From: Clostridiales bacterium
GTDB lineage: Bacteria; Bacillota; Clostridia; Christensenellales; HGM11417
DNA: 33,688 nt
NCBI GenBank assembly: GCA_012519285.1
Contig: JAAYQN010000001.1
Location: 1-33,688, forward strand
Direction of reading: 5' to 3'
A program made the translations under genes and the position numbers. The notes beneath the pieces were generated by a model. That model was not told the DNA's origin, made no database searches, and worked only from the letters and a program-made list of their open reading frames with translations. How positions within the stretch are numbered: the first letter of the stretch is position 1; each line of letters starts with the position of its first letter. Of the stretch, positions 7,705 through 33,688 are shown piece after piece.

Positions 7705-7946
7705 CCAAAGGCGATGACTAAAACACGGGTAGGCAATCAGTATTATCAAGAGAGGGTTTTGCGTCGGCTGAAACAAAACCTATAATATTTGTCTATCTTT
7801 CATTTACGAGCTGTGCGAGTGAAATGGCAGTAGCCCGCGACGGTTGCACCGTTAAAACTGCAATGAGGCCGCAAAAATTTTGCGGCGAACTTAGGTGGTA
7901 CCACGAATACCTTTCGTCCTATGGATTTTATCTATAGGATTTTTTA
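7705..7946 (+). ncRNA. T-box leader (tRNA-Phe-sensing) upstream of pheS
   Basis: T-box core AGGTGGTACCACG (7893-7905) with CTTTCGTCCT partner. Stem pairing GGTAGGC (7728-7734) with GTCTATC (7791-7797) places TTC (7799-7801, followed by A) in the specifier-loop position. Terminator follows. Confidence 0.9.
7917..7946 (+). terminator. T-box intrinsic terminator
   Basis: TCCTATGGA-TTTTA-TCTATAGGA hairpin followed by TTTTTT. Confidence 0.85.
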
Positions 7947-14184: not shown

Positions 14185-14200
14185 TGCATAGTACTATGCA
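14185..14200. repeat. palindrome TGCATAGTACTATGCA, copy 1
   Basis: Perfect 16-bp palindrome 2 nt after the mutS2 stop. Confidence 0.95.
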
Positions 14201-14308
14201 GATTATATTAACTTCGAATACTATATTACCTCAACTTTTTATTTTATTAATTGATATATGGTGGTATAATAAAATTGCTGCGACATCATAAAGGAAAAAG
14301 GTATCGAA

Positions 14309-14896
14309 ATGTTAGAGGTTTTTCATGAAGAGACGATAGGCCCCATTGAGGTCGAAAAGGTAAACAGAAAATACAAAATCGCCGCTACGTTTTCCATTCT
14401 TTCGCTGATTTCGGCTATATTTTTTACATTCTATTTCTTAATGGCGTTAAATTTGCCTATACCTGAGGAGGCGAACTTTAGCGATTTTTTAATCGTTCTG
14501 GTGCCAAATCTGATATTTATGGCGGGGTTTTACACCCTTTACTTTGTGTTCCGTTCAAAAAAGAACAGCTATAACGTGTTCTATGACTACACGTTTGTGT
14601 CGGGAGAGCTCAGGATCGCCAAGGTCTTGAACGGGGTAAAGAGAAAGCCTGTGGCAAAGGTCGTGGCGCGCGATATCTCGGTGCTGGGCAAGGTGTCTTC
14701 CGATAATTTCCTGAGATACAAGAGCATGAAGGACTTAAGGAACATCGTCGCCACCCCCAACGTCAACGTGAGCGACAACGTGTACTTTATGGTTTGCTCT
14801 TGCAACGGGGAAAGGACGCTTCTTCTGTTCGAGCCATCCCAGACGCTTTTGATATACATTAAGAGGTTTGCCGGCAGGACCATCGACTATGTATGA
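14309..14896 (+). CDS. uncharacterised two-TM membrane protein (DUF-like)
   Basis: 195 aa with two TM segments; extended -10 TGGTATAAT upstream (14262-14270). Confidence 0.7.
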   Translation: MLEVFHEETIGPIEVEKVNRKYKIAATFSILSLISAIFFTFYFLMALNLPIPEEANFSDFLIVLVPNLIFMAGFYTLYFVFRSKKNSYNVFYDYTFVSGELRIAKVLNGVKRKPVAKVVARDISVLGKVSSDNFLRYKSMKDLRNIVATPNVNVSDNVYFMVCSCNGERTLLLFEPSQTLLIYIKRFAGRTIDYV

Positions 14897-16034
14897 AGAC
14901 GTAATCTACCTTGACAACTGCGCCACTACCAGGTTGCTGCATCAGGCGGCCCACGCGCTTGCCTTTTACGGCAGCCACAAGTATTTCAATCCCTCGGCGC
15001 TGTACCGGGGCGCCGTCGACGTGTACAAGGACGTCGTCGAAGCGAGAAAGACCATAGCATGGTGCCTCGGATGCGGCGAAGAGGAGATAATATTCACTTC
15101 AGGCGGTTCAGAATCCAACAACACCGCCATCTTCGGCTCCGTCAGGAACAAAAAGGGCCGCGTGATCACTTCTCTGGGCGAACACATGTCCGTTTACGCG
15201 CCCTTCAACGAGCTGAAAAGCAGGGGTTTTGACGTACAATTTGCGAGGATAGACAAATGCGGCCGCGTGGATATAGAGCATTTCAAATCCCTGCTCAGTC
15301 CCGACACCGTGTTCGTGTCGGCCATTCATGCCAGCAATGAGACGGGTGCCGTAAACGACATTGGCCTTATCTCAAGGCTTTGCAAGCAGGCAAACCCAGA
15401 CTGCGTCATTCACGCCGATGGGACGCAGGCTTTTCTCAAGGCAGAATTTGAGGTGGGCTCGCTGGGAATAGACCTTTACACGATAAGCGGGCATAAGGTG
15501 CACGCGCCCAAGGGAATAGGCGCCCTCTACGTAAGGAAGGGAGTAAAGATAAACCTGTTGGTTTATGGGGCCTCGCAGGAGTACGGCATGAGAGCGGGGA
15601 CTGAAAACGCTGGCGCAATCTGCGCGTTTGCCGCGGCGGTCCGTATCCTGCATGGCGACATCAGGCAGAGGATTGCCTATTACAGAAAACTGAGGGAACT
15701 ATTCATCTCCACTCTCAAAAAAAACCTCGGCGATTTTTTGATAAACTGCGAAGAGGGCCTTCCCAACATCATCTCCCTGAGCATTGCCGGAGTAAAGTCG
15801 GAAATTTTGATACAGATGCTCTCCGACAAGGGCATCTATGTGGCGAGCGGCTCGGCGTGCTCCTCGAGGCAAAAGGTCTCCCGCGTCTTAAAGGAGATGG
15901 GCGTGGGGCAGAAATATATCGAAGGCTCAATCCGCGTAAGCTTCAGCCAGTTCAACACCGAGGAAGAAGTTCAGCTTGCCGCCGAGGCTATAGCCGATAC
16001 TGCGAATAGGCTGAGGAAGATGATAAGAAAGTAA
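14889..16034 (+). CDS. cysteine desulfurase (NifS/IscS-like)
   Basis: YLDNCATTR, SGGSESNNTA, SGHKVHAPKGIGALYV, ASGSACSS motifs; start overlaps the upstream stop. Confidence 0.95.
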   Translation: MYEDVIYLDNCATTRLLHQAAHALAFYGSHKYFNPSALYRGAVDVYKDVVEARKTIAWCLGCGEEEIIFTSGGSESNNTAIFGSVRNKKGRVITSLGEHMSVYAPFNELKSRGFDVQFARIDKCGRVDIEHFKSLLSPDTVFVSAIHASNETGAVNDIGLISRLCKQANPDCVIHADGTQAFLKAEFEVGSLGIDLYTISGHKVHAPKGIGALYVRKGVKINLLVYGASQEYGMRAGTENAGAICAFAAAVRILHGDIRQRIAYYRKLRELFISTLKKNLGDFLINCEEGLPNIISLSIAGVKSEILIQMLSDKGIYVASGSACSSRQKVSRVLKEMGVGQKYIEGSIRVSFSQFNTEEEVQLAAEAIADTANRLRKMIRK

Positions 16035-16160
16035 AAAGCCCGTTTTGCCCTGACGCGCACTGATTGGCAAATTTTATTTGTAGGCGGCGCGGTGCGTAAA
16101 GGCAGAGCTGAAAGGATAGGAAAAAAAACAACTTTTTTTCTAAAAACAGGAGGCTGCGGC

Positions 16161-17318
16161 TTGGAAAAGGTCATCCTTATCAGGTTTGGCGAAATATTTT
16201 TAAAGGGAAACAACAGATACGTTTTTGAAAACCTTCTCATCCGCAACATAAAGGAAGCGTTGGAGGGAATCGGCTGCGAAGTGGAGAGGAGCAGGGCGCG
16301 CTTTTGGATAAAGAATTTCAGTGACGCCGAAGAGGTCAGGGTCATCGAGAGACTTATCAAGGTTTTCGGCATACATTCCATAAGCTCCGCCCTGATGGTA
16401 AAGACGGATATAGGCGCTATATTTGAGGCAAGCGAAAAATTCATCAGGCAAGGCACCTTCAAGGTCATAACGGCGCGCGCGGATAAGGGTTTTGAGCTCA
16501 ACTCCATGCAGGTTTCCCAAAAAATCGGGGGAATGCTTCTAAAAAAGCACCCCTTCCTGAAAGTGGACGTACACAAGCCCGATTTTACCATAAACATTGA
16601 CATAAGGGAAGGGGGATACACCTTTGTCTTCTCCGACTACGTAAAGGGAGCGGACGGCCTGCCATGCGGCAGCGCGGGCAAGGGCCTGCTGTTGCTGTCG
16701 GGCGGCATAGACAGCCCTGTCGCGGGCTACATGCTATCAAGGAGAGGCCTCAAGCTCGACGCCATTCATTTTTACAGCTACCCGTACACGAGCGAGCTCG
16801 CCAAGCAAAAAGTAATTACCCTGTGCGAGAAACTCTCCGCCTACAACGGAAAGACCACTCTCTACGTCGTGCCATTTACGGAAATTCAGGAAGAAATTCA
16901 TAAGAATTGCGCGCAAAACTACATGATAACCTTAATGCGCCGCTTCATGATGAGGATTGCCGAAAAGGTGGCGATAAAAGCGGGCGCGAGCGCCCTCGTC
17001 AACGGCGAAAACCTCGGACAGGTTGCAAGCCAAACCATGGAGAGCATATTTGTAACAAACAGCGCTGTGAGCATGCCGGTCTTTCGCCCCTTAATTGGTT
17101 TCGACAAGCTCGACATCATCGAGATCGCGCAAAAAATCGGCACCTACGAGACTTCCATTCTGCCATACGAGGACTGCTGCACCGTGTTTTTGCCCCAAAA
17201 CCCCGTCATAAAGCCCAGGCTTGACTTTACCTTAAGGCAAGAGGCAAAGCTGGACGTAGAAAGGCTTGAGACCGCCGCCATATCCAACATGGAGGTTATC
17301 GTGGCAAAAAGGCCATAA
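16161..17318 (+). CDS. thiI: tRNA 4-thiouridine synthase ThiI (no rhodanese domain)
   Basis: LIRFGEIFLKGNNR, THUMP region, PP-loop LLLSGGIDSPVAGY; probable TTG start after AGGAGG. Confidence 0.93.
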   Translation: MEKVILIRFGEIFLKGNNRYVFENLLIRNIKEALEGIGCEVERSRARFWIKNFSDAEEVRVIERLIKVFGIHSISSALMVKTDIGAIFEASEKFIRQGTFKVITARADKGFELNSMQVSQKIGGMLLKKHPFLKVDVHKPDFTINIDIREGGYTFVFSDYVKGADGLPCGSAGKGLLLLSGGIDSPVAGYMLSRRGLKLDAIHFYSYPYTSELAKQKVITLCEKLSAYNGKTTLYVVPFTEIQEEIHKNCAQNYMITLMRRFMMRIAEKVAIKAGASALVNGENLGQVASQTMESIFVTNSAVSMPVFRPLIGFDKLDIIEIAQKIGTYETSILPYEDCCTVFLPQNPVIKPRLDFTLRQEAKLDVERLETAAISNMEVIVAKRP

Positions 17319-17384
17319 AGGGAAGGTTTTTTGGCAAATTGGGTCAGCTATCCCAGTAGCTCCTGGAGCCACTTTATCAGCAGC

Positions 17385-19715
17385 TCAATCAAAATCGAAA
17401 TAATCATCGGGGTCGTTTTCCCACCATTTTTCGTCGTCGTAATCGTAGCCGTAATCGTGGTCGTCGTCGTAGGTATCATAGGGCGAAAAGTTGTAGGGTA
17501 TGAGGAACTTTTTGCTCATAAAACTCCTTCCTTTGACGGTTCTGTTCAACCTTCTATTTGTAAATTGCGGAACTATGGCATATTGGTACATGGTCCCGCT
17601 CTTTAAATTTTCGTCGCAAAGGGTGATCGGACCTTCCTTTCCGCTCACCTTGAAGATGACCTCCTCGCCGTCCTCGCTATGCCTTATTACCTCGTATTCG
17701 AGATAGCTTTTGGCGGTGAAGCTGATCGTCACCTCGCCCTCGCCGTATTGTACCTGAGCGTCCAGGACGGCGGGTTCCGAAAAGCAATCGGAATATTCCC
17801 TCGGCATAAAGTGGACGCTGAACAGCTCTTTTTTGATGAACTTTTCGGGGGTGAACCCGGTGGCAAGCTTTAGAGTGTGATTTTGCCTTAAGTTTTCGGC
17901 GTCGAGCTCGCACTCCGCGACGCTTTCCGGCATCGGGATGAGTGGCGGGCAGTCATTCCCGTAGCAGGATTTAATAATGTCCCTGGCCATTATCGTGGGA
18001 TATGAGCCGCCGGTGACGCTTAAATCCATCTTTTTCGAGCCCATCCACACCGCAAACGTGTGCTTTGAGCTGTAAGTGATGTTGAAGGCGTCGGTGTTGT
18101 GGGTTGAACAGCCCACCGTGCCTGTCTTGGAATGCAGGTAATAGGGCAGGGCGGCAAGCTTTCTCGTGGTGCCGAACGTTATGCTGTCTTTTAACATGTG
18201 GGAGACGAGGTAGGCGGTATCCTCCCTCATTACCTGCGCGGGGGGTTCGGTGTTCTCGTAGACCACTTTCCCCCTGCTGTCGGTGATGCGCCGTATGAGC
18301 CTCGGCCTCTTGTAAAGGCCTCCCCTTGACAGGGGGACGTAGCTTGCGGCGAGCGCGTCGAGGGATACTCCGTGAGTGAAGCCGCCGAGTGCCAGTCCGA
18401 GGTTTTTGTCATCAGGGGAAAACCTGATGCCGCAGCGGCGCGCGAATAGCTTTGCCCTTTCTATCCCCACTGAATTGAATATCTTCACGGCAGGCACATT
18501 TAGGCTTTTTGCCAGGCTAAACCTCGCGTCCACGTATCCGTAATACTTGTCATCGAAATTTGAGGGGGAATATCCCTCAAAATCTGTCTTTTCGTCGAGT
18601 ATCTGCGTCGCAGGCGCGATGAGATTGTATTCGATCGCCGGCGCGTAGACGAGTATGGGCTTTATCGCCGAGCCCGGCTGGCGGGTTATCTTGTTGAAGG
18701 GGACTTTGCTCTTTACGGCGGCGGCGACTATGGCAAAGCTGTGATTGTCAATTACCAGCGCCGCGGAATCGGTGGATTGGTAATCCTTATAATAGCCCTT
18801 ACTGTAAACCGTCTTGTTTATCGCTTCCTGCTTTTCCCTGTCAAGGTAAGTGTATACGCTGTAATCGAGCCCCATTATTTCCTTTTGGGGAATTCCGAGC
18901 ACTTCGGATATTTCATTCAGGCATATTCTGATATAATCGTTGAAGCCGTTGGCGTGGCCCTTTTCGTCGCACAGCACAACCTCTTTGTTTACGTTTTCGC
19001 TGTATTCGGCGTCGGATATAAATCCAAGCTCGCGCATTTTCGTCAGCACCATATCCTTTCTCTGAATGAGCTTGTCGTAATTGGTATAGGGGGAATAGGT
19101 GCCGGGAGCCTTTATCAAAGCGGCAAGAGCGGCGCTCTCGTTTAAAGTGAGCTTTGAGGCAGCCTTGCCGAAGTAAAAGTGCGCCGCGCTCTCGATGCCG
19201 TAACATCCGCTCCCGAAGTATATATTGTTTAAGTACATGTCGAGGATCTGTTCCTTGGTGTACTTTCTCTCCATCTCGATTGCCAGCTTTATCTCGCGCG
19301 TCTTGCGGAAAATGGTCTTTTCCGACGAAAGCTGCGTATTTTTTATAAGCTGCTGGGATATGGTGGAAGCGCCTTCCTTGAACGAAAGGGATTTGAAGTT
19401 TGTCCACGCCGCGGCGAGCATCCTCCTTATGTCAATGCCGCTGTGGGAATAAAAGCGCTTGTCCTCGACGGCGATGAATGCGTCGTAGGTGTATCGCGGC
19501 AAGTTATCAAAACACTTTTTGCTGTAAATGATGTCTGCATCGACTATTTCGTTGCCCTCGCTGTCGAAAAAGCGCAGCTCGGTAAACCTGCCGCTTAGTT
19601 TTTTGTCGTTTAGGCGCACAGACATGGCGTCCGCAACGAGGACTGCGCCGGCGGCAAACACCAGCAGTGACAACGCCAGGGCTATTTTGAAGGCAATTTT
19701 GAAAAACTTGCGCAT
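17385..19715 (-). CDS. class A penicillin-binding protein (PBP1A-like) with Asp/Tyr-rich C-terminal tail
   Basis: GT51 motif EDKRFYSHSGID, transpeptidase motifs (QPGSAIKP; SKTGTVG), tail DTYDDDHDYGYDYDDEKWWENDPDDYFDFD. Confidence 0.93.
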   Translation of the reverse strand: MRKFFKIAFKIALALSLLVFAAGAVLVADAMSVRLNDKKLSGRFTELRFFDSEGNEIVDADIIYSKKCFDNLPRYTYDAFIAVEDKRFYSHSGIDIRRMLAAAWTNFKSLSFKEGASTISQQLIKNTQLSSEKTIFRKTREIKLAIEMERKYTKEQILDMYLNNIYFGSGCYGIESAAHFYFGKAASKLTLNESAALAALIKAPGTYSPYTNYDKLIQRKDMVLTKMRELGFISDAEYSENVNKEVVLCDEKGHANGFNDYIRICLNEISEVLGIPQKEIMGLDYSVYTYLDREKQEAINKTVYSKGYYKDYQSTDSAALVIDNHSFAIVAAAVKSKVPFNKITRQPGSAIKPILVYAPAIEYNLIAPATQILDEKTDFEGYSPSNFDDKYYGYVDARFSLAKSLNVPAVKIFNSVGIERAKLFARRCGIRFSPDDKNLGLALGGFTHGVSLDALAASYVPLSRGGLYKRPRLIRRITDSRGKVVYENTEPPAQVMREDTAYLVSHMLKDSITFGTTRKLAALPYYLHSKTGTVGCSTHNTDAFNITYSSKHTFAVWMGSKKMDLSVTGGSYPTIMARDIIKSCYGNDCPPLIPMPESVAECELDAENLRQNHTLKLATGFTPEKFIKKELFSVHFMPREYSDCFSEPAVLDAQVQYGEGEVTISFTAKSYLEYEVIRHSEDGEEVIFKVSGKEGPITLCDENLKSGTMYQYAIVPQFTNRRLNRTVKGRSFMSKKFLIPYNFSPYDTYDDDHDYGYDYDDEKWWENDPDDYFDFD

Positions 19716-19877
19716 ACTGACATTATTTTACGTATTTGTCAAAATATTATTTACGCCGGGCTATAAGCGCAAGCCGCAGCGATTTTCAGCGTGCGGGGTA
19801 AGCTATAATATTGGTTGTAAAAAATCAAAAAAAAAGTTATAATTTAATGGTATGAGCGAGGAGTTAAGGGGCAAGGC

Positions 19878-21191
19878 ATGCGTTACCACATAATTACTTT
19901 CGGCTGCCAGATGAATGTCCACGATTCTGAAAAGATCGCGGGGATGCTGACTGAGCTCGGCTACGAGAAGTGCGACAGCGCCGAGCAGGCAGACGTCATC
20001 GTCATCAATACCTGCTGCATCCGGGAGACAGCGGAGAGCAAAGCCATCAGCAAGATAGGCTCCCTTAAGCAAATAAAGGACAAGCATCCCGAAAAGATAG
20101 TGGCGGTGTGCGGCTGCATGACCCAGGCAGGAGACAATTCTCAAAAGCTTTCCGAGCGCTTCCCCTTTATAGACATAATTTTCGGCACCCACAACATCCA
20201 CCATTTCAAAGATTACCTGCTCGAGAGAAGGGAGCTCGGCAAAAAGGTGGTTGAGATTTGGGAAAGGGAGGAGGGCGCGATTGACGACGTGCCAGTGCTC
20301 ACAGGCAACAGCGTGAGCGCTTTCGTCAACATAATTTACGGGTGCAACAATTTCTGCACGTATTGCATAGTACCCTACGTCAGGGGCCGGGAGAGGAGCA
20401 GGCCTTTTGAGGCCATCTACTCCGAAGTAAAGAAGCTCATTGAGGGCGACTACAAGGAGGTCGTCCTGCTGGGGCAGAACGTAAACTCCTACGGGAACGA
20501 CATCGGCGGGATGAAATTTTACCAGCTCCTCGATAAGCTCTCCAAGATCGAGGGCAAATACAGGCTGCGATTTATGACCTCTCATCCAAAGGATTTCGAC
20601 GACAACCTCATCCGAGTAATAAGGGACAACGAGAGGGTATGCAACAGCATCCACCTGCCCGTGCAGTCGGGAAGCGACAGGATACTCAAGGCGATGAACA
20701 GAAATTACACTGCCGCCGATTACCTAAAGATAATAGAAAAAATCTACAAGCATATCCCGGACTGCGGCATAACGTCGGATTTCATGGTGGGCTTTCCGGG
20801 CGAAACCGATGAGGACTTTAAGGCTACGCTGGACCTGGTGAAAAAGGTAAGGTACAACGGCTGCTACATGTTCGTTTACTCGAGGAGGAAGGGGACGCCC
20901 GCCGCAGAGTGGGAACAGGTCCCCGACGAGGTCAAAAAGCAGCGGATTGTAGAGCTTATTTCCCTGCAGAACCAAATAACAAAGGAGATAAACAGGGAAA
21001 AATACCTCGGCAACACATTCGAGATACTCGTTGACGGAAAGCACGACAAGAGGGAAGGCCTCTATTGCGGCAAGACCGAATGCGGCAGGCTGATAAACTT
21101 TGAGGGCGACGAATCACATATAGGGCAATTTTTAAACGTAAAGGTCACAAAGAGCGCCACTTCCGCGCTGTTCGGCGAAATATGCGCATAG
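19878..21191 (+). CDS. miaB: tRNA-2-methylthio-N6-dimethylallyladenosine synthase
   Basis: ITFGCQMNVHDSE, CNNFCTYCIVPYVRGRERSR radical SAM cluster, TRAM domain. Confidence 0.96.
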   Translation: MRYHIITFGCQMNVHDSEKIAGMLTELGYEKCDSAEQADVIVINTCCIRETAESKAISKIGSLKQIKDKHPEKIVAVCGCMTQAGDNSQKLSERFPFIDIIFGTHNIHHFKDYLLERRELGKKVVEIWEREEGAIDDVPVLTGNSVSAFVNIIYGCNNFCTYCIVPYVRGRERSRPFEAIYSEVKKLIEGDYKEVVLLGQNVNSYGNDIGGMKFYQLLDKLSKIEGKYRLRFMTSHPKDFDDNLIRVIRDNERVCNSIHLPVQSGSDRILKAMNRNYTAADYLKIIEKIYKHIPDCGITSDFMVGFPGETDEDFKATLDLVKKVRYNGCYMFVYSRRKGTPAAEWEQVPDEVKKQRIVELISLQNQITKEINREKYLGNTFEILVDGKHDKREGLYCGKTECGRLINFEGDESHIGQFLNVKVTKSATSALFGEICA

Positions 21192-21200
21192 TATTATGCG
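21185..21200. repeat. palindrome family copy 2 (CGCATAGTATTATGCG)
   Basis: One-base variant in the centre; outer pair C-G instead of T-A. Contains the miaB stop codon (21189-21191). Confidence 0.8.
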
Positions 21201-21227
21201 GCAGATAATTTTACAGAGGTGTTTTTT

Positions 21228-23837
21228 ATGGCTTTGACACCGATGATGAGGCAGTATCTGGAGACTAAAGAGAAATACAAGGACTGTATCCTCTTCTATC
21301 GCCTCGGAGACTTTTATGAGATGTTTTTCGATGACGCCATCATTGCGTCAAAGGTGCTCGATCTGGTATTGACGGGAAGGGACTGCGGCCTCGAAGAGAG
21401 GGCACCAATGTGCGGCGTCCCTTACCATTCCGCCGAGGTGTACATAGCTAAGCTGCTCGAGAAAGGCTACAAGGTGGCGATATGCGAGCAGCTCACCACT
21501 CCTGACCAGTCACCCGAACTTCTTGTCAGGGACGTAGTCAGGGTAGTTACGCCGGGCACCGTGATGGAAGAGGGCCTGCTTAAAGAAGACGTCAATAACT
21601 TTATCGCCTCCGTCTACCTTGATAAAGATGACATCGGAATTGCCTGGGCGGACATCTCTACCGGGGAGTTCTATTTGAAGCAGATAAAGAGAGATACAGG
21701 TTTTGCCAAGCTTTGCGACACCTTGCTCGGCTTTTCCCCATCGGAAATAATATGCAATGCTCCGATGCTGGATGAAATCAAAGAACTCAACGCCGTAAAG
21801 TACAACCTTTTGCCCGCTTTCTCGGGATACCATGAATGGGCGTTTTTTCACGATACGGCGTATAAGGCCTTGACCGAACAGCTTCAGGTTAATTCTCTCG
21901 TCCCGTTTGAGTGCGAGAACAAAATTTATGCGATATGCGCGGCAGGCGCCCTCGTCCAATATTTGAGGGACACTCAAAAGCGCTCGCTGAGCCACCTAAG
22001 CCGCCTTTCTTTCGTCAAAGAAAGCAGGTACATGCTCCTTGACAACAACGCCGTGAGGAACTTAGAGCTCGTCAGGACGCTGCGGGACGGCAAAAAATAC
22101 GGCAGCCTCCTGTGGCTGCTCGACGAGACATGTACCAGCATGGGGGCGAGGTGCCTTCACGCAAGCATTTTGCAGCCATTAACCCAACCCGACAAGATCG
22201 CCGAGCGCCTCGACGCTGTGGAAGAGCTCGTCCGCAACGTGGAGATGAGGGAAGGAATAAGGGAATACCTTTCCCAGGTGAGGGACTTGGAGAGGCTAGC
22301 CGCAAAGACCTCTTACGGCAGCCTGAACCCCAAGGATTGCATACATATAAAGAATACCTTTGCGGTGTTGCCTTATATAAGAAATTTGCTCAAATCCGCA
22401 AAGAGCTCGCTGCTAAGGCGCATTTGCGAGGAGATAAGCTGCTTTGACGGCATTGTCGACCTGCTCCGCAGGGCATTGAACGACAACCCTCCTACCGTGT
22501 TAAGGGATGGGGGAATTATTAAGGCGGGCTACAACGCAGAGCTCGACGAGCTCAAGAGCGCCTCCAGCAACGGAAAGAGGTGGCTTTTGGAGCTGGAGGC
22601 AGCCGAAAGGGAGAGGACGGGAATCAAAAACCTCAGAGTCGGTTTCAACAAGGTTTTCGGCTATTACATTGAGGTGACAAAGAGCTACTTAAACCAGGTT
22701 CCCATGAATTACGTACGCAAGCAGACGCTCGCCAACGCCGAGCGCTACATCACGCCCGAGCTTAAGAATGTAGAGAACAAGATACTGGGCGCCGACGAGG
22801 CGAGCATAAGGCTGGAGATAAAGCTCTTTGACGACATAGTGAGCGAGATATCAAAGCTCATAAAGCCCATGCAGGCCACCGGAAAAGCTTTGGCCAACCT
22901 CGATATGCTTTTGTCCTTTGCCGCGGTGGCAATCAAACACAACTACTGCAAGCCCGCCATCACTTCAGGCAGTTGCCTGGTCATCGAGGAGGGAAGGCAT
23001 CCCGTAGTCGAGGCAGTGTCTAAGAGCGAGAAGTTTGTGCCTAACGATACCTACCTCGACGACGACCAGAACAGGATAATGATCATAACCGGCCCTAACA
23101 TGGCGGGAAAGAGCACCTACATGAGGCAGGTGGCGCTGATTATCCTGATGGCTCACATCGGCAGCTTTGTGCCCGCCAAAAAAGCGCAGATTCCCATAGT
23201 GGACAGGATTTTTACGAGGATAGGCGCCTTTGACAACCTCGCCTTTGATCAAAGCACCTTTATGGTGGAGATGACGGAAGTCGCCAGCATCCTGCACAAC
23301 GCCACTGACAGGAGCCTTTTGGTTCTCGACGAGGTGGGCAGGGGAACCAGCACTTTCGACGGTTTGAGCATCGCATGGGCGGTCATGGAATTCATATCAA
23401 AAAAATTCAGGGCCAAGACGCTGTTTGCCACCCATTACCATGAGCTCACTGAGCTTGAGGGCAGGATCGAGGGCGTAAAGAATTATAGAATTTTAGTGAA
23501 AGAAATAAATGGTAGCATTGCGTTTTTAAGGAAGATTCAGAGAGGGGGCGCCAACAAAAGCTTCGGAATTGACGTCGCCGCGCTCGCCGGCATTCCCAGG
23601 CAGGTCATCGAACGGTCGAGAAAGATCCTAATGCAGCTTGAAGAGGCCGACATCAATAATCCTCGGAACAAGTCCGCTCAAGTAGTGATGAGCTTTGACG
23701 TACATGGGGACCGCTCCTCAGAATATGAAGAGATTTTAGATTATGTCAAATCCATTGATTTGGATACCTTGTCGCCCATCGAGGCATTAAACAAAATGTA
23801 TTACTTGAAGCAGAAGGTTGCTGAGCTGGAAAAATAA
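21228..23837 (+). CDS. mutS: DNA mismatch repair protein MutS
   Basis: YLETKEKYKDCILFYRLGDFYEMF, Walker A GPNMAGKST, DEVGRGTSTFDG. Confidence 0.97.
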   Translation: MALTPMMRQYLETKEKYKDCILFYRLGDFYEMFFDDAIIASKVLDLVLTGRDCGLEERAPMCGVPYHSAEVYIAKLLEKGYKVAICEQLTTPDQSPELLVRDVVRVVTPGTVMEEGLLKEDVNNFIASVYLDKDDIGIAWADISTGEFYLKQIKRDTGFAKLCDTLLGFSPSEIICNAPMLDEIKELNAVKYNLLPAFSGYHEWAFFHDTAYKALTEQLQVNSLVPFECENKIYAICAAGALVQYLRDTQKRSLSHLSRLSFVKESRYMLLDNNAVRNLELVRTLRDGKKYGSLLWLLDETCTSMGARCLHASILQPLTQPDKIAERLDAVEELVRNVEMREGIREYLSQVRDLERLAAKTSYGSLNPKDCIHIKNTFAVLPYIRNLLKSAKSSLLRRICEEISCFDGIVDLLRRALNDNPPTVLRDGGIIKAGYNAELDELKSASSNGKRWLLELEAAERERTGIKNLRVGFNKVFGYYIEVTKSYLNQVPMNYVRKQTLANAERYITPELKNVENKILGADEASIRLEIKLFDDIVSEISKLIKPMQATGKALANLDMLLSFAAVAIKHNYCKPAITSGSCLVIEEGRHPVVEAVSKSEKFVPNDTYLDDDQNRIMIITGPNMAGKSTYMRQVALIILMAHIGSFVPAKKAQIPIVDRIFTRIGAFDNLAFDQSTFMVEMTEVASILHNATDRSLLVLDEVGRGTSTFDGLSIAWAVMEFISKKFRAKTLFATHYHELTELEGRIEGVKNYRILVKEINGSIAFLRKIQRGGANKSFGIDVAALAGIPRQVIERSRKILMQLEEADINNPRNKSAQVVMSFDVHGDRSSEYEEILDYVKSIDLDTLSPIEALNKMYYLKQKVAELEK

Positions 23838-24057
23838 TTGCGGTTTAAAAAAATTTTTAATGATTTTCAATTATTATAAAAATTCGTTTGCATCTATTTA
23901 TTTTTTAATATATTATATAGACAAATGTTTATTTTTTAAGATTCTTATCAGCTTTTATATAAATATATGTTAAAAATTTGCTTGAATGGGCGAGCAAAGG
24001 GTTTATATTAAAGGGATTGACCGAACTTTTTTTATTTTTTAAAAGGGTTTGATTGAA

Positions 24058-25980
24058 ATGGGGAAGATAAATATCCTCGACAGTAAAATATACAATAAGA
24101 TCGCCGCGGGCGAAGTGGTAGAGCGGCCCGCATCGGTTGTCAAGGAACTGCTTGACAACAGCATTGATGCCGGAGCTTGTGACATTGAGATTGAGATAAA
24201 GGGCAGCGGCCTCAAGAATATAACGGTGTGGGATGACGGCTGCGGAATGGAAAAAGACGATTTAAAGCTCGCCTTTTTGCCGCACGCCACCAGCAAGATT
24301 TTCAGCGAAAGAGACCTGTTTGGGATAAAGACCCTGGGATTTCGGGGAGAAGCGCTCGCCTCGATCGCCGCCGTGAGCATGGTTGAGATTTGCTCCATGG
24401 CGGAAGGCGCCCAGGTTGGATACGGCCTCAAGATCGTCGCGGGACGGGTGGAGGAAGAGTTTGAGCGCGCGATGGGAAGAGGCACGTATATCAGCGTCAT
24501 CAACCTTTTCTTCAATACGCCCGCGAGGCTTAAATTTTTAAAGAGCGAGAGGGCGGAAGAGGCCGAGGTATCCAATATCGTCTCAAGGTATATCCTATGC
24601 AATCCTCACAAGAGGATAAAGCTTACCAGCAACGGCAAGACCATATATCAGTCTTCAGGCCTGGGTCTGAAGGACGCCATAAATTGTGTTTACGGGCTGG
24701 ATGCGCTTTCAAATATAACAGAGATAAATCATACTGGTAGCGGGTTTAGGCTTTTCGGATATATAAGCAAGCCCTCTTACTCAAAGCCCAACAGGACATA
24801 TCAGACCATAGCGTTAAACGGCAGGTACATCATAAACAACACCATAAGCGCCGCCATCTCAAATGCTTACGGCGAGTTTCTGATGAAGAGGCAATACCCC
24901 TTCTACGTTTTGCACCTTTCCATGCTTGAGCAATGGGTTGACGTCAACGTACACCCGAGCAAGCTTGACGTGCGCTTTGAGGACAACAAAAAGGTATTCA
25001 GCCTCTTTTATAATACCGTATATAAGGCTTTGCATAGTAGTATGCAGGGCTTGCATAGTACTATGCAAAGTATAGAACTCCCACAAAACGGTATGGAAAG
25101 CGCTCCGGCGCAGCAAGCTGGCGATTATATACGGGAGATACTTTACAAGTACGACAGGCAGGACCCTTCTTACAGCCCCGTGAACGTCAGGGTGAGCGAC
25201 GCTTATGCGACAGCCACGCAGGACAGTAAAACTATGCTGCCGCAAGGGAGAATCGAGCTGCCTCCAGAAATGGAAAGTGGACAGCGCTTTGATATTGGTT
25301 TAAAAACAACATTAAAGGTTGATAATATACAGGACGAAGGCGCTGCTTTACGGATTAATGGTAATGCAGATAGACTTGAGCAAAGCGGCAATTCCTTCGA
25401 TCACAGCTTTTTGAATGTAAAGTGCACCCTCTTTAATACATATATAATAGCAACATACAAAGACGACATACTCATAATTGACCAGCACGCCGCGCATGAG
25501 AGGATTTTATTCGATAAGTTTATAAAGGAGCTTCGCAGCGGCAAAAAGGCCGTTCAGGACTTATTGGTACCCTTTATACTAAACGTAAATCCTTCCGAAC
25601 ATGAGTTTATTTGCGAAAATATCGCTATTTTGCGGGACATCGGCTTTGAGATTGAAGAATTTGGCTATTGCGTGTTCAAGGTTTCCGCCGTGCCCGTGCT
25701 TCTTAGCGATATGGATATAGACGCCTTTTTTGCAGACCTGCTTAAAGAGAACGGCGCTTATAGACAACAGGGCAAGGCGACGGATTACATAAGGGAGGAA
25801 ATGATAAAGAAAGCTTGCAGGGCCGCTGTGAAGGCAGGCGACGTATTATCCCAAATGGATTTGGAATACATCTTAAGGCAACTGTTTACAGGAAAGGTGT
25901 TGCTATGCCCCCATGGCAGGCCCATCGTGGCAAAGTACAGCAGGGCAGACCTTGAAAAAATCTTCAAGAGGATTGTGTAG
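24058..25980 (+). CDS. mutL: DNA mismatch repair protein MutL
   Basis: KIAAGEVVERPASVVKELLDNSIDAGA, GFRGEALASIAAVS, C-terminal DQHAAHERILFDKF. Confidence 0.97.
   Translation: MGKINILDSKIYNKIAAGEVVERPASVVKELLDNSIDAGACDIEIEIKGSGLKNITVWDDGCGMEKDDLKLAFLPHATSKIFSERDLFGIKTLGFRGEALASIAAVSMVEICSMAEGAQVGYGLKIVAGRVEEEFERAMGRGTYISVINLFFNTPARLKFLKSERAEEAEVSNIVSRYILCNPHKRIKLTSNGKTIYQSSGLGLKDAINCVYGLDALSNITEINHTGSGFRLFGYISKPSYSKPNRTYQTIALNGRYIINNTISAAISNAYGEFLMKRQYPFYVLHLSMLEQWVDVNVHPSKLDVRFEDNKKVFSLFYNTVYKALHSSMQGLHSTMQSIELPQNGMESAPAQQAGDYIREILYKYDRQDPSYSPVNVRVSDAYATATQDSKTMLPQGRIELPPEMESGQRFDIGLKTTLKVDNIQDEGAALRINGNADRLEQSGNSFDHSFLNVKCTLFNTYIIATYKDDILIIDQHAAHERILFDKFIKELRSGKKAVQDLLVPFILNVNPSEHEFICENIAILRDIGFEIEEFGYCVFKVSAVPVLLSDMDIDAFFADLLKENGAYRQQGKATDYIREEMIKKACRAAVKAGDVLSQMDLEYILRQLFTGKVLLCPHGRPIVAKYSRADLEKIFKRIV
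25030..25071. repeat. two tandem palindrome-family copies (21-bp units) inside mutL
   Basis: TTGCATAGTAGTATGCAGGGC (25030-25050) and TTGCATAGTACTATGCAAAGT (25051-25071), translated LHSSMQG/LHSTMQS. Confidence 0.92.
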
Positions 25981-25983
25981 CGG

Positions 25984-26922
25984 ATGAATGGCACATTGCT
26001 GGTGATTGCCGGGCCCACCGCAACTGGAAAGAGCAGCGTCGCCATGAAGATCGCAAGGGCGCTGGGTACCGACATTATCTCCTGCGATTCCGCCCAGGTT
26101 TATAAATATATGGATATAGGCACGGCAAAGCCTACCTTAAAGGAACGCATGGAGATAAGGCATCACCTTGTAGACTACGTAATGCCCGATGAGGAATACT
26201 CCGCGGTAAGGTGCAAAGAGGATTGCGACGGAATCATTTGCCAGCTTTTTGAGCAAGGTAAAACGCCGCTCATCGTGGGCGGAACAGGCATGTATTTAAA
26301 CGCGGTGCTTTACGAGATGAACTTTGGTAGCGCTTATAAATCCGATGAGATAAGGTCAGAGCTCCAACGCCTGTTAAAGGAAAAGGGCTCCGATTATCTA
26401 TATGACATACTGAAGGAGATTGACAATGAGACCGCCTTGATGCTGCACAAGAATGATGCCAAACGGATTATAAGGGCAATCGAGATTTTCAAGCTCAGCG
26501 GCAAAAAGAAATCTGAACAGATAGAGAACTTTACGAAGAAAAAAAGGTACAAATTTTATTTTGCCGTATTGCATTGCGATCGCAGATACCTCTATGAAAG
26601 GATAAACAGGAGAGTTGACGACATGATGAAAAGAGGCCTTTTGCAGGAGGTTGAAAGGCTTGCCTCGACGGAATACAAGAACTGCAAGTCGCTGCAGCAG
26701 GCGATAGGGTACAAGGAATTGTTAGATTATCTGGACGGAAAGTACACGCTGGGTCAGGCGGTTGAAAAGATAAAACAGTTCACGCGAAATTACGCAAAGA
26801 GGCAGCTCACCTGGTTCAGGAAAGTACCCCATGCGGTATGGTACGACATAAAATCGGGCGAGGATGAGGTGGCAAAACAGATTTTGTACAACTTTAACGA
26901 ATATGCAAAAACTGAGCTTTAA
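25984..26922 (+). CDS. miaA: tRNA dimethylallyltransferase
   Basis: LLVIAGPTATGKSSVA, DSAQVYKYMDIGTAKP. Confidence 0.96.
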   Translation: MNGTLLVIAGPTATGKSSVAMKIARALGTDIISCDSAQVYKYMDIGTAKPTLKERMEIRHHLVDYVMPDEEYSAVRCKEDCDGIICQLFEQGKTPLIVGGTGMYLNAVLYEMNFGSAYKSDEIRSELQRLLKEKGSDYLYDILKEIDNETALMLHKNDAKRIIRAIEIFKLSGKKKSEQIENFTKKKRYKFYFAVLHCDRRYLYERINRRVDDMMKRGLLQEVERLASTEYKNCKSLQQAIGYKELLDYLDGKYTLGQAVEKIKQFTRNYAKRQLTWFRKVPHAVWYDIKSGEDEVAKQILYNFNEYAKTEL

Positions 26923-26926
26923 ACAT

Positions 26927-26955
26927 TTGATTTTAATCAATTCAGCATTTATAAT
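26927..26955 (+). promoter_or_regulatory. hfq promoter TTGATT-17-TATAAT with overlapping dyad TTGATTTTAATCAA
   Basis: TTGATT 26927-26932, TATAAT 26950-26955; dyad 26927-26940. Confidence 0.6.
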
Positions 26956-27021
26956 AAATCTGTTTAAAAATAAAAAAAATGTCAAGAATACAAATGATTG
27001 CTTTTAAGGAGTTTTACTGAT

Positions 27022-27243
27022 ATGAAAGAGTTGATTTTGCAGGATATTATATTAAATCAGGCAAGAAGGGAAAAATCCAAAGTCACTGTAAAGCTTGTCA
27101 GCGGAGACATCATCACGGGAACCATCAGGGGGTTTGATGCCAACACACTCATCATCGACGATGAGGATAGGCAGATAATGTTATACAAAAAAAACATTCT
27201 ATACGTTCAACCTTCAACACCAGTTCTCAAAGACATGCCTTAA
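27022..27243 (+). CDS. hfq: RNA chaperone Hfq
   Basis: LQDIILNQARREKSKVTVKLVSGDIITGTIRGFDANTLII, located directly after miaA. Confidence 0.9.
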   Translation: MKELILQDIILNQARREKSKVTVKLVSGDIITGTIRGFDANTLIIDDEDRQIMLYKKNILYVQPSTPVLKDMP

Positions 27244-27265
27244 GGTTTTCGCGCAGAGGACTTAA

Positions 27266-28510
27266 TTGTTTTCATTCCGCACACACAACAAAATACCCGA
27301 AATAATTGAACAGATTGAAGCCGGGCTCGCCAATGATTTCAAGGTCATTGACGACATCGCGCTTTTCAATCAGGAAAAGGCTTTAAGGAGTTTTATCGAC
27401 AATAAGGTGGCCTTAAGGCACTTTTCGCAAACTACCGGATACGGTTACGACGACATAGGAAGGGATACGCTGAACTCCGTCTATGCCGGAGTATTCAAAT
27501 CCGATTCGGCGATAGTCTCTTCTCATATTTTGTCAGGGACACACGCCATATCATTGGTGCTCTTTGGCCTGCTCAGGCCCGGCAACAAGCTGCTCAGCAT
27601 AAGCGGGCAGCCCTATGACACGCTGAAGGACGTGATAAGCGGCAAAGGCTTGGGTTCTCTCGCCGATTTCGATATATCTTACGACGAAGTGCCCCTGTGC
27701 GAAGGCAATTTCGATAAACCCGCCATAAAGGAAAAGATTTTGGCAGAAAGGCCTCAAATGGTGCTCATCCAGAGGTCAAGGGGTTATTCGCTTAGGAATC
27801 CCTTAAGCTGCGTACAAATTAGGGACATATGTTCATTTATTAAAGGCCTGGACGAGCGCATAATAATATTTGTGGATAACTGTTACGGCGAGTTTACCGA
27901 GAAAGAGGAGCCGATCGAGGCGGGGGCCGACGTAGTGGCGGGCTCGCTCATTAAAAATGCGGGCGGGGGAATTGCCCCCAACGGCGGTTACATAGCGGGA
28001 AGGGGAGACCTGATCGACCTTATCAACAGGAGGCTGACAACTCCCGCCACCGGTGGAGAGATAGGCTCTAATTTCGGAGGTTACCAGTATTTTTACCAGG
28101 GCTTGTTTCTGGCGCCCCACGTCGTGGCTCAAAGCTTAAAGGGTGCCCTGCTCATGGGAGAGGCAATGAAGTGGGCGGGCTATAAGGTATTGCCCGAAGA
28201 GCCTTCCCAATGTTACGATATCATACGCTCCATTGAGTTTGATACCGAAGAGGAGCTCATAACCTTCTGCCGCACCATCCAGAGCGTTTCCCCGGTTGAC
28301 AGCTATGTAGTGCCATACCCTTGGGATATGCCGGGGTATAAAAACAAGGTAATCATGGCCGCGGGCTGCTTCGTGCAAGGCTCCTCAATTGAACTCTCCT
28401 GCGACGCCCCCGTAAGGCCTCCTTATGTCGCCTATTGTCAGGGCGGTCTTACTTACGAGCACGTAAAGATAGCGGTCATCCATTGCCTTCAGAATTTAAA
28501 GAAACTATGA
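27266..28510 (+). CDS. methionine gamma-lyase-like / aluminium-resistance family PLP protein (YnbB-like)
   Basis: FSQTTGYGYDDIGRDTLNSVYAGVF, SGTHAISLVLFGLLRPG, VAGSLIKNAGGGIAPNGGYIAG; next to hfq. Confidence 0.88.
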   Translation: MFSFRTHNKIPEIIEQIEAGLANDFKVIDDIALFNQEKALRSFIDNKVALRHFSQTTGYGYDDIGRDTLNSVYAGVFKSDSAIVSSHILSGTHAISLVLFGLLRPGNKLLSISGQPYDTLKDVISGKGLGSLADFDISYDEVPLCEGNFDKPAIKEKILAERPQMVLIQRSRGYSLRNPLSCVQIRDICSFIKGLDERIIIFVDNCYGEFTEKEEPIEAGADVVAGSLIKNAGGGIAPNGGYIAGRGDLIDLINRRLTTPATGGEIGSNFGGYQYFYQGLFLAPHVVAQSLKGALLMGEAMKWAGYKVLPEEPSQCYDIIRSIEFDTEEELITFCRTIQSVSPVDSYVVPYPWDMPGYKNKVIMAAGCFVQGSSIELSCDAPVRPPYVAYCQGGLTYEHVKIAVIHCLQNLKKL

Positions 28511-28528
28511 ATACTTTGCAATAAAGTA

Positions 28529-28565
28529 CGCATAGTACTATGCAAGGTTACGCATAGTACTATGC
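28529..28565. repeat. two tandem palindrome-family copies (22-bp spacing) after the YnbB-like gene
   Basis: GCATAGTACTATGC at 28530-28543 and 28552-28565, the second followed by TTTTTGTTTTT. Confidence 0.95.
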
Positions 28566-31309: not shown

Positions 31310-32226
31310 CGGTAAACAGGAAAACCATAATTGCTACGGCAATTATTATAATAAGCTGCATAGCTTCAGCTTTTTTGTTTTACAAAATTTCATTTTTGGC
31401 GAACCTATGGAAAATCGCCGCCTTGGCGATAATAGCATTGACCGCAATTGCTTCTGTCATCGCGCTGCACCTCAGGAACGTTCCGGTTTACAGGCTTTGC
31501 GTGACCATAACGCTCTTTGCGCTCTTTTTCGGTTCGCTTTTTTATCTCTTTGACGTCTCGGGATTCTGGGACAGCATAAGCACTGAGCAAGGGATAAAGA
31601 AATTTATTGAGGAGAAAGGCTTTTTCTCCAGCCTTGTATTCTTCATAATCCAGGTGCTTCAAGTGGTCGCAATCCCCATCCCTGGCGCCATAACCATCAC
31701 GGTTGGGTACCTTCTCTTTGGGTTCTGGTGGGGTTCGTTGATAAGTTTTTTAGGCATCGTGGCGGGCTCCGTCTTGGCCTTTTTGATAGGGCGAAAGTTT
31801 GGATACAAGCTGGTTGTGTGGATCGTAGGGGAGGATAAGCTCAACAAGGCCATGAACTTTATCCGGGGAAAGGACAAAGTGATATTTGCGATGATATTCC
31901 TCCTGCCGTTTTTCCCTGATGATATACTGTGCTTCGTGGCGGGCCTTACCCCGATGAGCTTGACCTATTTCACGTGCATGGCCATGACCACGAGAATCAT
32001 AACGATATCAGCGCAGTCGCTGTTTATGAGCTTTGTAAAATACCTTCTCTATTCGGGCTCGGTTACGGGATATATACTGCTCGGCCTGATGGGGGCAGCA
32101 CTGCTCGCAATTTTTATCATTACGGTAAAGTACGCGAAAAGGATTCAGTCCTATTTTGAAAACAAGTTCGACATAATTATCCGGAAGATAAGGGGCGGAA
32201 AAAAGAACAAAGAGGGCGCAGAGTGA
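31306..32226 (+). CDS. TVP38/TMEM64 family (DedA/SNARE-associated-like) membrane protein
   Basis: Multi-TM; VAIPIPGAITITVGYLLFGFWWGSLISFLGIVAGSVLAFLIGRKFG. Confidence 0.85.
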   Translation: MTVNRKTIIATAIIIISCIASAFLFYKISFLANLWKIAALAIIALTAIASVIALHLRNVPVYRLCVTITLFALFFGSLFYLFDVSGFWDSISTEQGIKKFIEEKGFFSSLVFFIIQVLQVVAIPIPGAITITVGYLLFGFWWGSLISFLGIVAGSVLAFLIGRKFGYKLVVWIVGEDKLNKAMNFIRGKDKVIFAMIFLLPFFPDDILCFVAGLTPMSLTYFTCMAMTTRIITISAQSLFMSFVKYLLYSGSVTGYILLGLMGAALLAIFIITVKYAKRIQSYFENKFDIIIRKIRGGKKNKEGAE

Positions 32227-32317
32227 CGCAGAATGATGCGAGGAAAGATGGCCGCAGAACCCAGCGGATTCAAATTTTCTATAACTGCATTGGTGCTATC
32301 GATTTGCCAGCTAAACG

Positions 32318-32353
32318 AAAAAACGGCATAGCCGAATATCAACGGCTATGCCG
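32318..32353 (-). terminator. intrinsic terminator downstream of the ADH gene
   Basis: CGGCATAGCC-GAATATCAAC-GGCTATGCCG, perfect 10-bp stem; A run on plus = T run on minus. Confidence 0.8.
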
Positions 32354-32408
32354 AATTTTACAGGAATTATAAATCCCTATCTGACCGCTCCAAAAAGCTA
32401 TTCTTTTT

Positions 32409-33377
32409 TTATATCAAGGCAACCAAGCGACCCTTGACTTCGCCGCGGCGGAGTCTCTCCAGTCCTTCGGGGATCTCATCAAAGCTTATACTGGCCAGCT
32501 GCGGGTTAAGTTTTCCGGTTGAAAAGAAATTATATACTTCCTTGATATCATTGGTGTCACCACCGCAGCTACCGACGATTTGCGCTTGCTTAAGAATGAG
32601 CGACCGGGTATTGATATTACAATCAAGCTTACCCATACCTACGACAACCACTTTGCCGGATGGAGCTACCGCTTCCAATGCCTCGGAAGTGGTACTGCCA
32701 AATCCTGCATAGTCTACGATTACTTCGCAATTACAAGCTGCCAGATCGGAAACATTCTCAAATACTCCCTTGCAGCCGATCTCTTTGGCTAATGCCCTTG
32801 CATCAGGACTAATATCGACAGCGTATACCTCAATGCCGGCTATGATAGCCATCCCGGCGGCAAACTGCCCTAGTCCGCCGATGCCAATAATTCCCACCTT
32901 CATTCCGGCTTTTGCACCGCCGGCAACGAACAGGGCGTGATACGAGGTCATTCCAGCATCAGTGGCGGCAGCTCCCTGCATAAAAGATACGTTATCAGGC
33001 AGGTGAACCAGGCAATCCTGAGGAACCAGGCACTTGGTAGCGTAACCGCCATCACATTGATAGCCAATTGCATAAGAATGACCCGTTGACGCTGAAAGCT
33101 CCGCGGATATGGGGCACACCCCGACCCTGTCGCCAACTTTGAATCCTGTAACGCCTTCGCCCACTTCGGTGATGACTCCAGCGCATTCGTGGCCCATATA
33201 CATAGGATGGGCAGTAATAATCCCTATCCAACCGGGATCTTCTAGTGCTGCAACATCAGAGTGGCACAGTCCTGCTGCCTTAACGTCAATTACCACCTGA
33301 CCAGGAACAGCCTTGGGGTCCGGTTTCTCGACCAATTTAAGGGGGATGTGAGTATCAGTAAATAACCAACCTTTCAT
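32409..33377 (-). CDS. zinc-dependent medium-chain alcohol dehydrogenase
   Basis: AAGLCHSDVAALEDP, GHECAGVITEVGEGVTGFKVGDRV, GIGGLGQFAAGMA Rossmann motif. Confidence 0.92.
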   Translation of the reverse strand: MKGWLFTDTHIPLKLVEKPDPKAVPGQVVIDVKAAGLCHSDVAALEDPGWIGIITAHPMYMGHECAGVITEVGEGVTGFKVGDRVGVCPISAELSASTGHSYAIGYQCDGGYATKCLVPQDCLVHLPDNVSFMQGAAATDAGMTSYHALFVAGGAKAGMKVGIIGIGGLGQFAAGMAIIAGIEVYAVDISPDARALAKEIGCKGVFENVSDLAACNCEVIVDYAGFGSTTSEALEAVAPSGKVVVVGMGKLDCNINTRSLILKQAQIVGSCGGDTNDIKEVYNFFSTGKLNPQLASISFDEIPEGLERLRRGEVKGRLVALI

Positions 33378-33559
33378 TTAACTCAACTCCTTACTAAATA
33401 ATTTGAATTATACAGACACCTTAGTGCTTTACTTTAGTCTAACACATTTGCTAAAATTACTCAAGTATTTTTGTTAGATTTTTAACAATTTTTTTAATCT
33501 TAAATTGCAACTACAAGTGCAACGGTTTGTATAATAAGTTCTTTCAGTTTCCTTTACCC

Positions 33560-33688
33560 CTAGGGGTAAAGGAAAAAATTTTCTAATTCTTGAGTAAACA
33601 CTTGTTCTGCGGATTTGTAGCCAAGTCGTTTTCGGGGGTAGGTGTCAATCCAATTGTTTATACGGTTTAATGTTTCCTGATCAATTGA
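33560..33688 (-). mobile_element. IS30-family transposase C-terminus, truncated by window edge
   Basis: Minus-strand SIDQETLNRINNWIDTYPRKRLGYKSAEQVFTQELENFFLYP*; IS end-like AAGTGCAACGG at 33515-33525. Confidence 0.85.

Follow-up and report, generated by a model that had tools for sequence, protein, structure and literature searches.

Palindromic sites in the window

What kind of element is the 14 bp palindrome GCATAGTACTATGC, copies of which lie among the mutS2, miaB, mutS, mutL, miaA and hfq genes of a Clostridiales contig? The contig, here called the window, is 33,688 bp long and belongs to G000, a 1.30 Mb draft genome in 94 contigs that is 86% complete. The initial annotation listed four exact copies and two one-base variants, and all six are present where it placed them (Table 1); the hfq gene that it named was also found, at 26998–27243. 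Copy counts and statistics for G000 were obtained with pattern searches. The rarity claimed for the word holds under first- to third-order Markov models, which predict 2e-5 to 8e-5 exact copies in the window; for the version of the 14-mer with an N, 2e-4 to 4e-4 copies are expected and six were found. The observed count was reached by none of 100 shuffles of the window, even with two mismatches allowed.

Table 1. Sites and conserved gene block in the window
Feature	Position	Strand	Details
Perfect palindromic single site	14186..14199	.	GCATAGTACTATGC; 4 nt past the mutS2 stop codon
Single site, one-base variant	21186..21199	+	GCATAGTATTATGC; overlaps the stop codon of miaB, with mutS downstream
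Double site	25030..25068	.	GCATAGTAGTATGC (one-base variant) at 25032-25045 and GCATAGTACTATGC at 25053-25066, 21 bp apart; within mutL
Double site	28530..28565	.	GCATAGTACTATGC at 28530-28543 and 28552-28565, 22 bp apart; TACTATG-N10-CATAGTA
Syntenic block	14868..28510	+	counterpart in G192 is terminus-proximal

In the whole of G000, the pattern occurs nine times and the reversed pattern not at all. One further copy was found at one mismatch, and together these make up seven loci, distributed over four contigs. Of these loci, one being the one-mismatch copy, four are on the 33.7 kb contig, in line with the clustering that had been described (binomial p ~1.5e-5, for a contig picked post hoc). 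Most copies are paired at a distance of 21–24 bp, in the window as its two double sites and also on contigs C13 and C81. The unit is therefore longer than 14 bp. A free base at the centre of the palindrome, read earlier from the two variants, was not borne out: either variant disrupts one arm of the palindrome, and they are therefore imperfect sites. The mutL double site reads in frame as LHSSMQ-G-LHSTMQ, and the 28530 pair separates the 3' ends of a methionine gamma-lyase homologue and an NlpC/P60 gene, which converge on it. At the mutL position, one copy is present in G001 and two in G000, so that copy number can vary locally. A search for phage relatives of the mutL region found none.

Architecture and distribution of the site family

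When 396 genomes of the order were screened, with site counts compared with those of a reversed control, enrichment was found in f15 (but not in its genus g42), f20, f30, most of f32 and G001 of f1, which is the family of the window. Enrichment was weak in part of f19, and most other families were at background. The site family is far above control in five families of the order, and the exact 14-mer is abundant in two f1 genomes, G000 and G003. Counts of the f15-type site are consistently high in f20 (G022, G070, G159 and others), typically 20–49 against 0–6 for the control.

In f15, the site is a 24 bp asymmetric inverted repeat, CADAGTACTATG-N5-CATAATA, with a half-site spacing of 17 bp (broader form, CATARTACTATG-N5-CATARTA) and approximately 15–30 copies per genome. 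In G003, nearly every copy is accompanied at 28 bp by a second arm, which is usually the weaker one, for example GCATAGTACTCTGA-N14-GCATAGTACTATGC. The common denominator is a pair of TACTATG/CATARTA half-sites with lineage-specific spacing (17, 21–24 or 28 bp). The f1 sites are near-symmetric double palindromes in which no polarity is visible. The flank of the 21186 site is similar to the second arm of the f15 type, in + orientation. We conclude that the six 14-mers in the window are one family's version of an order-wide site, predicted from its sequence features to bind a protein.

Among 84,980 genomes scanned, the paired form was found in 24 stretches, about half of them in one MAG; the remainder consisted of stretches from rabbit-gut and other uncultured Clostridia and of several hairpins that appear to be unrelated chance matches. 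Overlapping tandem arrays of the palindrome with a period of 12 were found upstream of genes in L064 (2782–2819, three units) and L059 (1953–1978, two units), which come from other uncultured Clostridia/Clostridiales MAGs. A 20 bp match to the f15 site in a U32-peptidase-like gene of two f32 genomes (L089 and L090) was excluded as a coding coincidence, as it consists of codons for LHSTMPDI in the reading frame. A text search found the exact 14-mer GCATAGTACTATGC in no paper.

Clustering and orientation relative to the terminus

The position of the terminus was inferred from GC skew in draft genomes. In the 824 kb contig C1 of the f15 genome G192, the skew turns from positive to negative at approximately 590–600 kb, the sign change expected at a terminus, and 12 of the 13 sites on this contig lie within 540–824 kb. 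To the left of the switch, sites occupy the + strand; to the right, most occupy the − strand. C1 of G331 has the same pattern, with the switch near 220–240 kb. Concentration of the sites on few contigs, or on one part of a contig, in G192, G331 and G084 gave p values from 2e-12 to 7e-5, which are optimistic because the regions were chosen for carrying sites.

The orientation rule makes a sharp prediction, namely where the skew of a further contig should switch, and it held on two contigs. The locations were written down before the DNA of these contigs was read, with most site positions and strands already known and the skew not. As predicted, in G157 C3 the sites at 49.4 and 71.7 kb flank a skew switch at 60–70 kb, and in G117 C2 the sites at 125.3 and 153.1 kb flank one at approximately 140 kb. 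Among new asymmetric sites, on contigs picked mostly to test the prediction, 22 of 23 agreed with the skew, and the pooled figure was 66/77 (p=1e-10). The weight matrix had been trained, in a strand-neutral manner, on the contigs of the first orientation count; those of the second set were new to it. Where genes run against the skew, 16 of the 20 sites follow the skew; as skew prevails over gene direction by 16 to 4 (p=0.012), gene direction does not explain the orientation of the sites.

The sites of G003 are also clustered, and the orientation of their strong and weak arms has no relation to skew. Site polarity is thus a feature seen in f15 only. A search for dif near the skew switch of G192, with a B. 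subtilis dif sequence as the query, gave weak matches only.

Terminus-side location of homologues of the window genes

The syntenic block in the window is made up of genes for a class-V aminotransferase, ThiI, a penicillin-binding protein (on the − strand), MiaB, MutS, MutL, MiaA, Hfq and the methionine gamma-lyase homologue. All of these except hfq were matched to homologues in a block at 550–562 kb of G192 C1, 30–45 kb from the skew switch, and homologues of the window genes also form one block in G331 and in G084. The positions of the sites in the f15 block differ from those in the window: the positions shared within f15 are near the junction of thiI and the penicillin-binding protein gene, and between miaA and the lyase gene. 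A site 3' of purB is common to G000, G084, G192 and G331, and hence occupies an orthologous place across genera.

Genes at other G000 sites (mutS2, purB, lexA and truB/nrnA) likewise map to terminus-side DNA of G192. For approximately half of the G003 loci, the flanking genes have a homologue in the f15 DNA that was fetched, nearly all of it terminus-side; flanking genes at the remaining loci had no match there and are uninformative. As the f15 set includes limited origin-side DNA (~160 kb of G192), this mapping is supportive rather than decisive. The association of the sites with the terminus is well supported in f15, and is supported indirectly in f1.

A membrane PadR protein as the candidate binder

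Clustering of the genes that adjoin sites led to one DNA-binding protein in four genomes of two families. This protein, here named mPadR, carries a PadR winged helix that scores 63 bits for PF03551 (cut-off, 27) and for which the best sequence and fold matches are PadR structures, including cdPadR1 (5DYM). The winged helix is followed by a long linker predicted with low confidence, and so apparently disordered, and in most members by four C-terminal hydrophobic helices, predicted to be transmembrane.

A site lies directly upstream of the −35 box of mPadR in 13 of 13 f15 genomes examined that encode it (ten, plus G084, G192 and G331). A site is also present at the mPadR promoter in f1 (G003 and G001), f32 (G187) and f19 (G021), and the upstream region in G032 of f30 contains related sequences; no clear site was seen in the mPadR promoter region of G002, G008 or G016. 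In several f15 genomes, mPadR is the sole PadR-like match. Site enrichment was found in 13 of 22 genomes with mPadR and in 0 of 16 without it (Fisher p=1e-4, ignoring phylogeny), and both site enrichment and mPadR are absent from G044, a member of the unenriched f15 genus g42. On this evidence, mPadR is the best candidate for the binder of the sites.

Clostridioides difficile cdPadR1 binds TACT(N11-12)AGTA, including at its own promoter, and about 200 motifs have been predicted for it in that species (PMC5050560). The f15 sites have the same geometry (TACT-ATGN5CAT-ARTA, i.e. TACT-N11-ARTA), while in f1 the spacing differs, with N15–N22 between TACT and AGTA. The winged helix and the site at its own promoter are further similarities of mPadR to the cdPadR1/PadR-s2 proteins. 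However, the regulator cdPadR1 is small and soluble (117 residues in the PDB chain), mPadR adds to this the linker and the four transmembrane helices, and the sites associated with mPadR are clustered at the terminus and show no promoter preference. Of the proposals in the initial annotation, that of a symmetric protein-binding site is thus the one that we retain, as a prediction that draws on the fixed spacing within lineages, the match to a PadR-type operator and the conserved site at the promoter of a DNA-binding protein. In G033 (f31), a CATAGTA-N12/13-TACTATG inverted repeat was found in L235, approximately 150 bp upstream of a gene for a 113 aa PadR and upstream of its −35 box; the operator geometry of this soluble PadR is possibly the ancestral form.

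Proposed role of the sites

Our preferred explanation, which we regard as probable, is that the palindromes are the predicted binding sites of a system that marks the chromosome terminus and is based on mPadR. A dimer of mPadR would bind the inverted TACTATG/CATARTA half-sites and may regulate its own promoter, and its transmembrane part may hold the terminus-proximal chromosome at the membrane or division site. The asymmetry of strong and weak arms in f15 suggests a directional process, and site polarity there could serve fork passage, fork arrest or translocase movement. Against this model stand the failure to find mPadR in the draft of G000 itself (86% complete), the mPadR genomes without site enrichment (G005, G008, G012, G016 and G031), the lack of polarity in G003 and the variation of spacing among lineages.

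Known terminus-marking systems are few: Tus-Ter and MatP-matS, both from some Gammaproteobacteria, and RTP-Ter of Bacillus. Firmicutes have Noc-NBS and ParB-parS, in which 14–16 bp palindromes present in several to tens of copies connect parts of the chromosome with the cell envelope or with segregation. The origin is the region marked by parS, the terminus is avoided by Noc sites, and both systems differ from the present one in motif and protein family. To our knowledge, MatP is without a transmembrane part. The Ter macrodomain of Escherichia coli contains 23 matS sites in 800 kb (PMC3330122). The likeness of the present sites to MatP-matS lies in some 20 copies of a short palindromic site confined to the terminus region and in one dedicated protein, here a candidate. 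The motif (GTGACRNYGTCAC in matS) and the protein family differ, and matS is 13 bp long, whereas the unit described here is a larger double inverted repeat that in f15 is oriented.

More tentatively, we suggest that this may be an independently evolved terminus system, in which a membrane-embedded PadR, 15–30 replication-oriented sites, a membrane tether and a possible polar signal to forks or translocases join the roles of MatP, RTP and a membrane anchor in one protein. If so, terminus marking has evolved repeatedly, a fold shared with RTP has been fused to a membrane anchor in uncultured gut Clostridia, and the way in which the completion of replication is connected with the membrane and with division becomes testable in a new lineage. 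The membrane-anchored PadR type has not previously been linked to the chromosome terminus: a search for papers on PadR and the replication terminus returned, judged by titles and abstracts, none on terminus marking by PadR, and a search for work joining replication terminator protein, Ter sites and Clostridia found none.

Alternative explanations

The sites could instead be Ter sites, i.e. polar traps at which a PadR with an RTP-like fold arrests forks that have passed the terminus. Clustering at the terminus and an orientation flip there, features of RTP-Ter and Tus-Ter, were seen in four f15 genomes, and the strong and weak arms are asymmetric, as are the A and B sites of RTP. PadR-s2 dimers of Bacillus cereus are highly similar to B. 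subtilis RTP in topology and dimer organisation (PMC3506622), and a site is present at the promoter of mPadR itself. However, the forks that RTP blocks are those reaching the strong B site first (PMC10331603), and as the strong arm in f15 faces the opposite way, so that forks coming from the origin reach it first, that rule would block the wrong forks. G003 is without polarity, and arrest needs no membrane anchor of the kind that the candidate protein has. We consider fork trapping by a PadR protein unlikely. Known RTP was rejected: none of 16 genomes matched its family, PF02334, even at E<=1, with the B. subtilis control found.

Still less probable is a conventional PadR regulon, in which the sites are operators of scattered genes, as the initial annotation had proposed without naming a protein. 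The PadR-type motif, the site at the mPadR promoter and sites upstream of a dgt-like gene and thrS in several genomes are in keeping with it. However, with genes called by a simple longest-ORF rule, ORFs contain 26 of the 61 f15 sites, and the 35 in intergenic DNA (21 codirectional, 8 convergent and 6 divergent) match background in their proportions of promoter and 3' positions. This absence of promoter preference makes a regulon unlikely; the genes adjoining sites are unrelated housekeeping genes, and neither terminus clustering nor replication-linked orientation would be explained. The f15 sites are enriched in intergenic DNA (35/61, against ~10% of the sequence), as expected if binding sites avoid coding constraint.

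We regard as very improbable a repeat of the REP, MITE or terminator-hairpin type, a palindrome that multiplies and becomes dispersed and whose action, if it has any, is that of a hairpin in RNA or DNA. Paired copies fold strongly (z −6.6 and −7.7; −13.6 and −15 kcal/mol for DNA), a T-rich run follows the 28530 pair, many f1 sites are near gene 3' ends and the second mutL copy may be a local duplication relative to G001, but orthologous positions recur across genera, the Y1 transposase (PF01797) is absent from the site-rich G393, G331, G084 and G032, the Y1 loci that were found have no adjoining site, no site matches an Rfam family, and the fixed spacing within lineages, replication-linked orientation and promoter conservation would be left unexplained. 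The spreading mini-palindrome suggested at first is discounted on the same transposase and recurrence evidence and on the marking of the terminus. A REP/RAYT assignment was rejected, as the PF01797 survey with adjacency found no Y1 transposase flanked by the repeat, and a hairpin or RNA element was rejected because, although the pairs fold, spacing, orientation and placement favour protein binding.

Other features

An Rfam search of 147 kb at the gathering score returned only a T-box and two tRNAs, none at a site. The T-box leader (102.8 bits) is at 7705–7924 of the window (+ strand), directly upstream of pheS-pheT. At the end of the window, GC skew goes negative over the last 1.7 kb (32000–33688), where − strand genes appear before the contig ends. 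Elsewhere in G000, L040 on contig C34 contains a 508 aa ORF (1368–2894), convergent with lexA, with OB-fold and RNase_T exonuclease domains; it is similar to a portion of PolC or to a stand-alone exonuclease, possibly with a frameshift.
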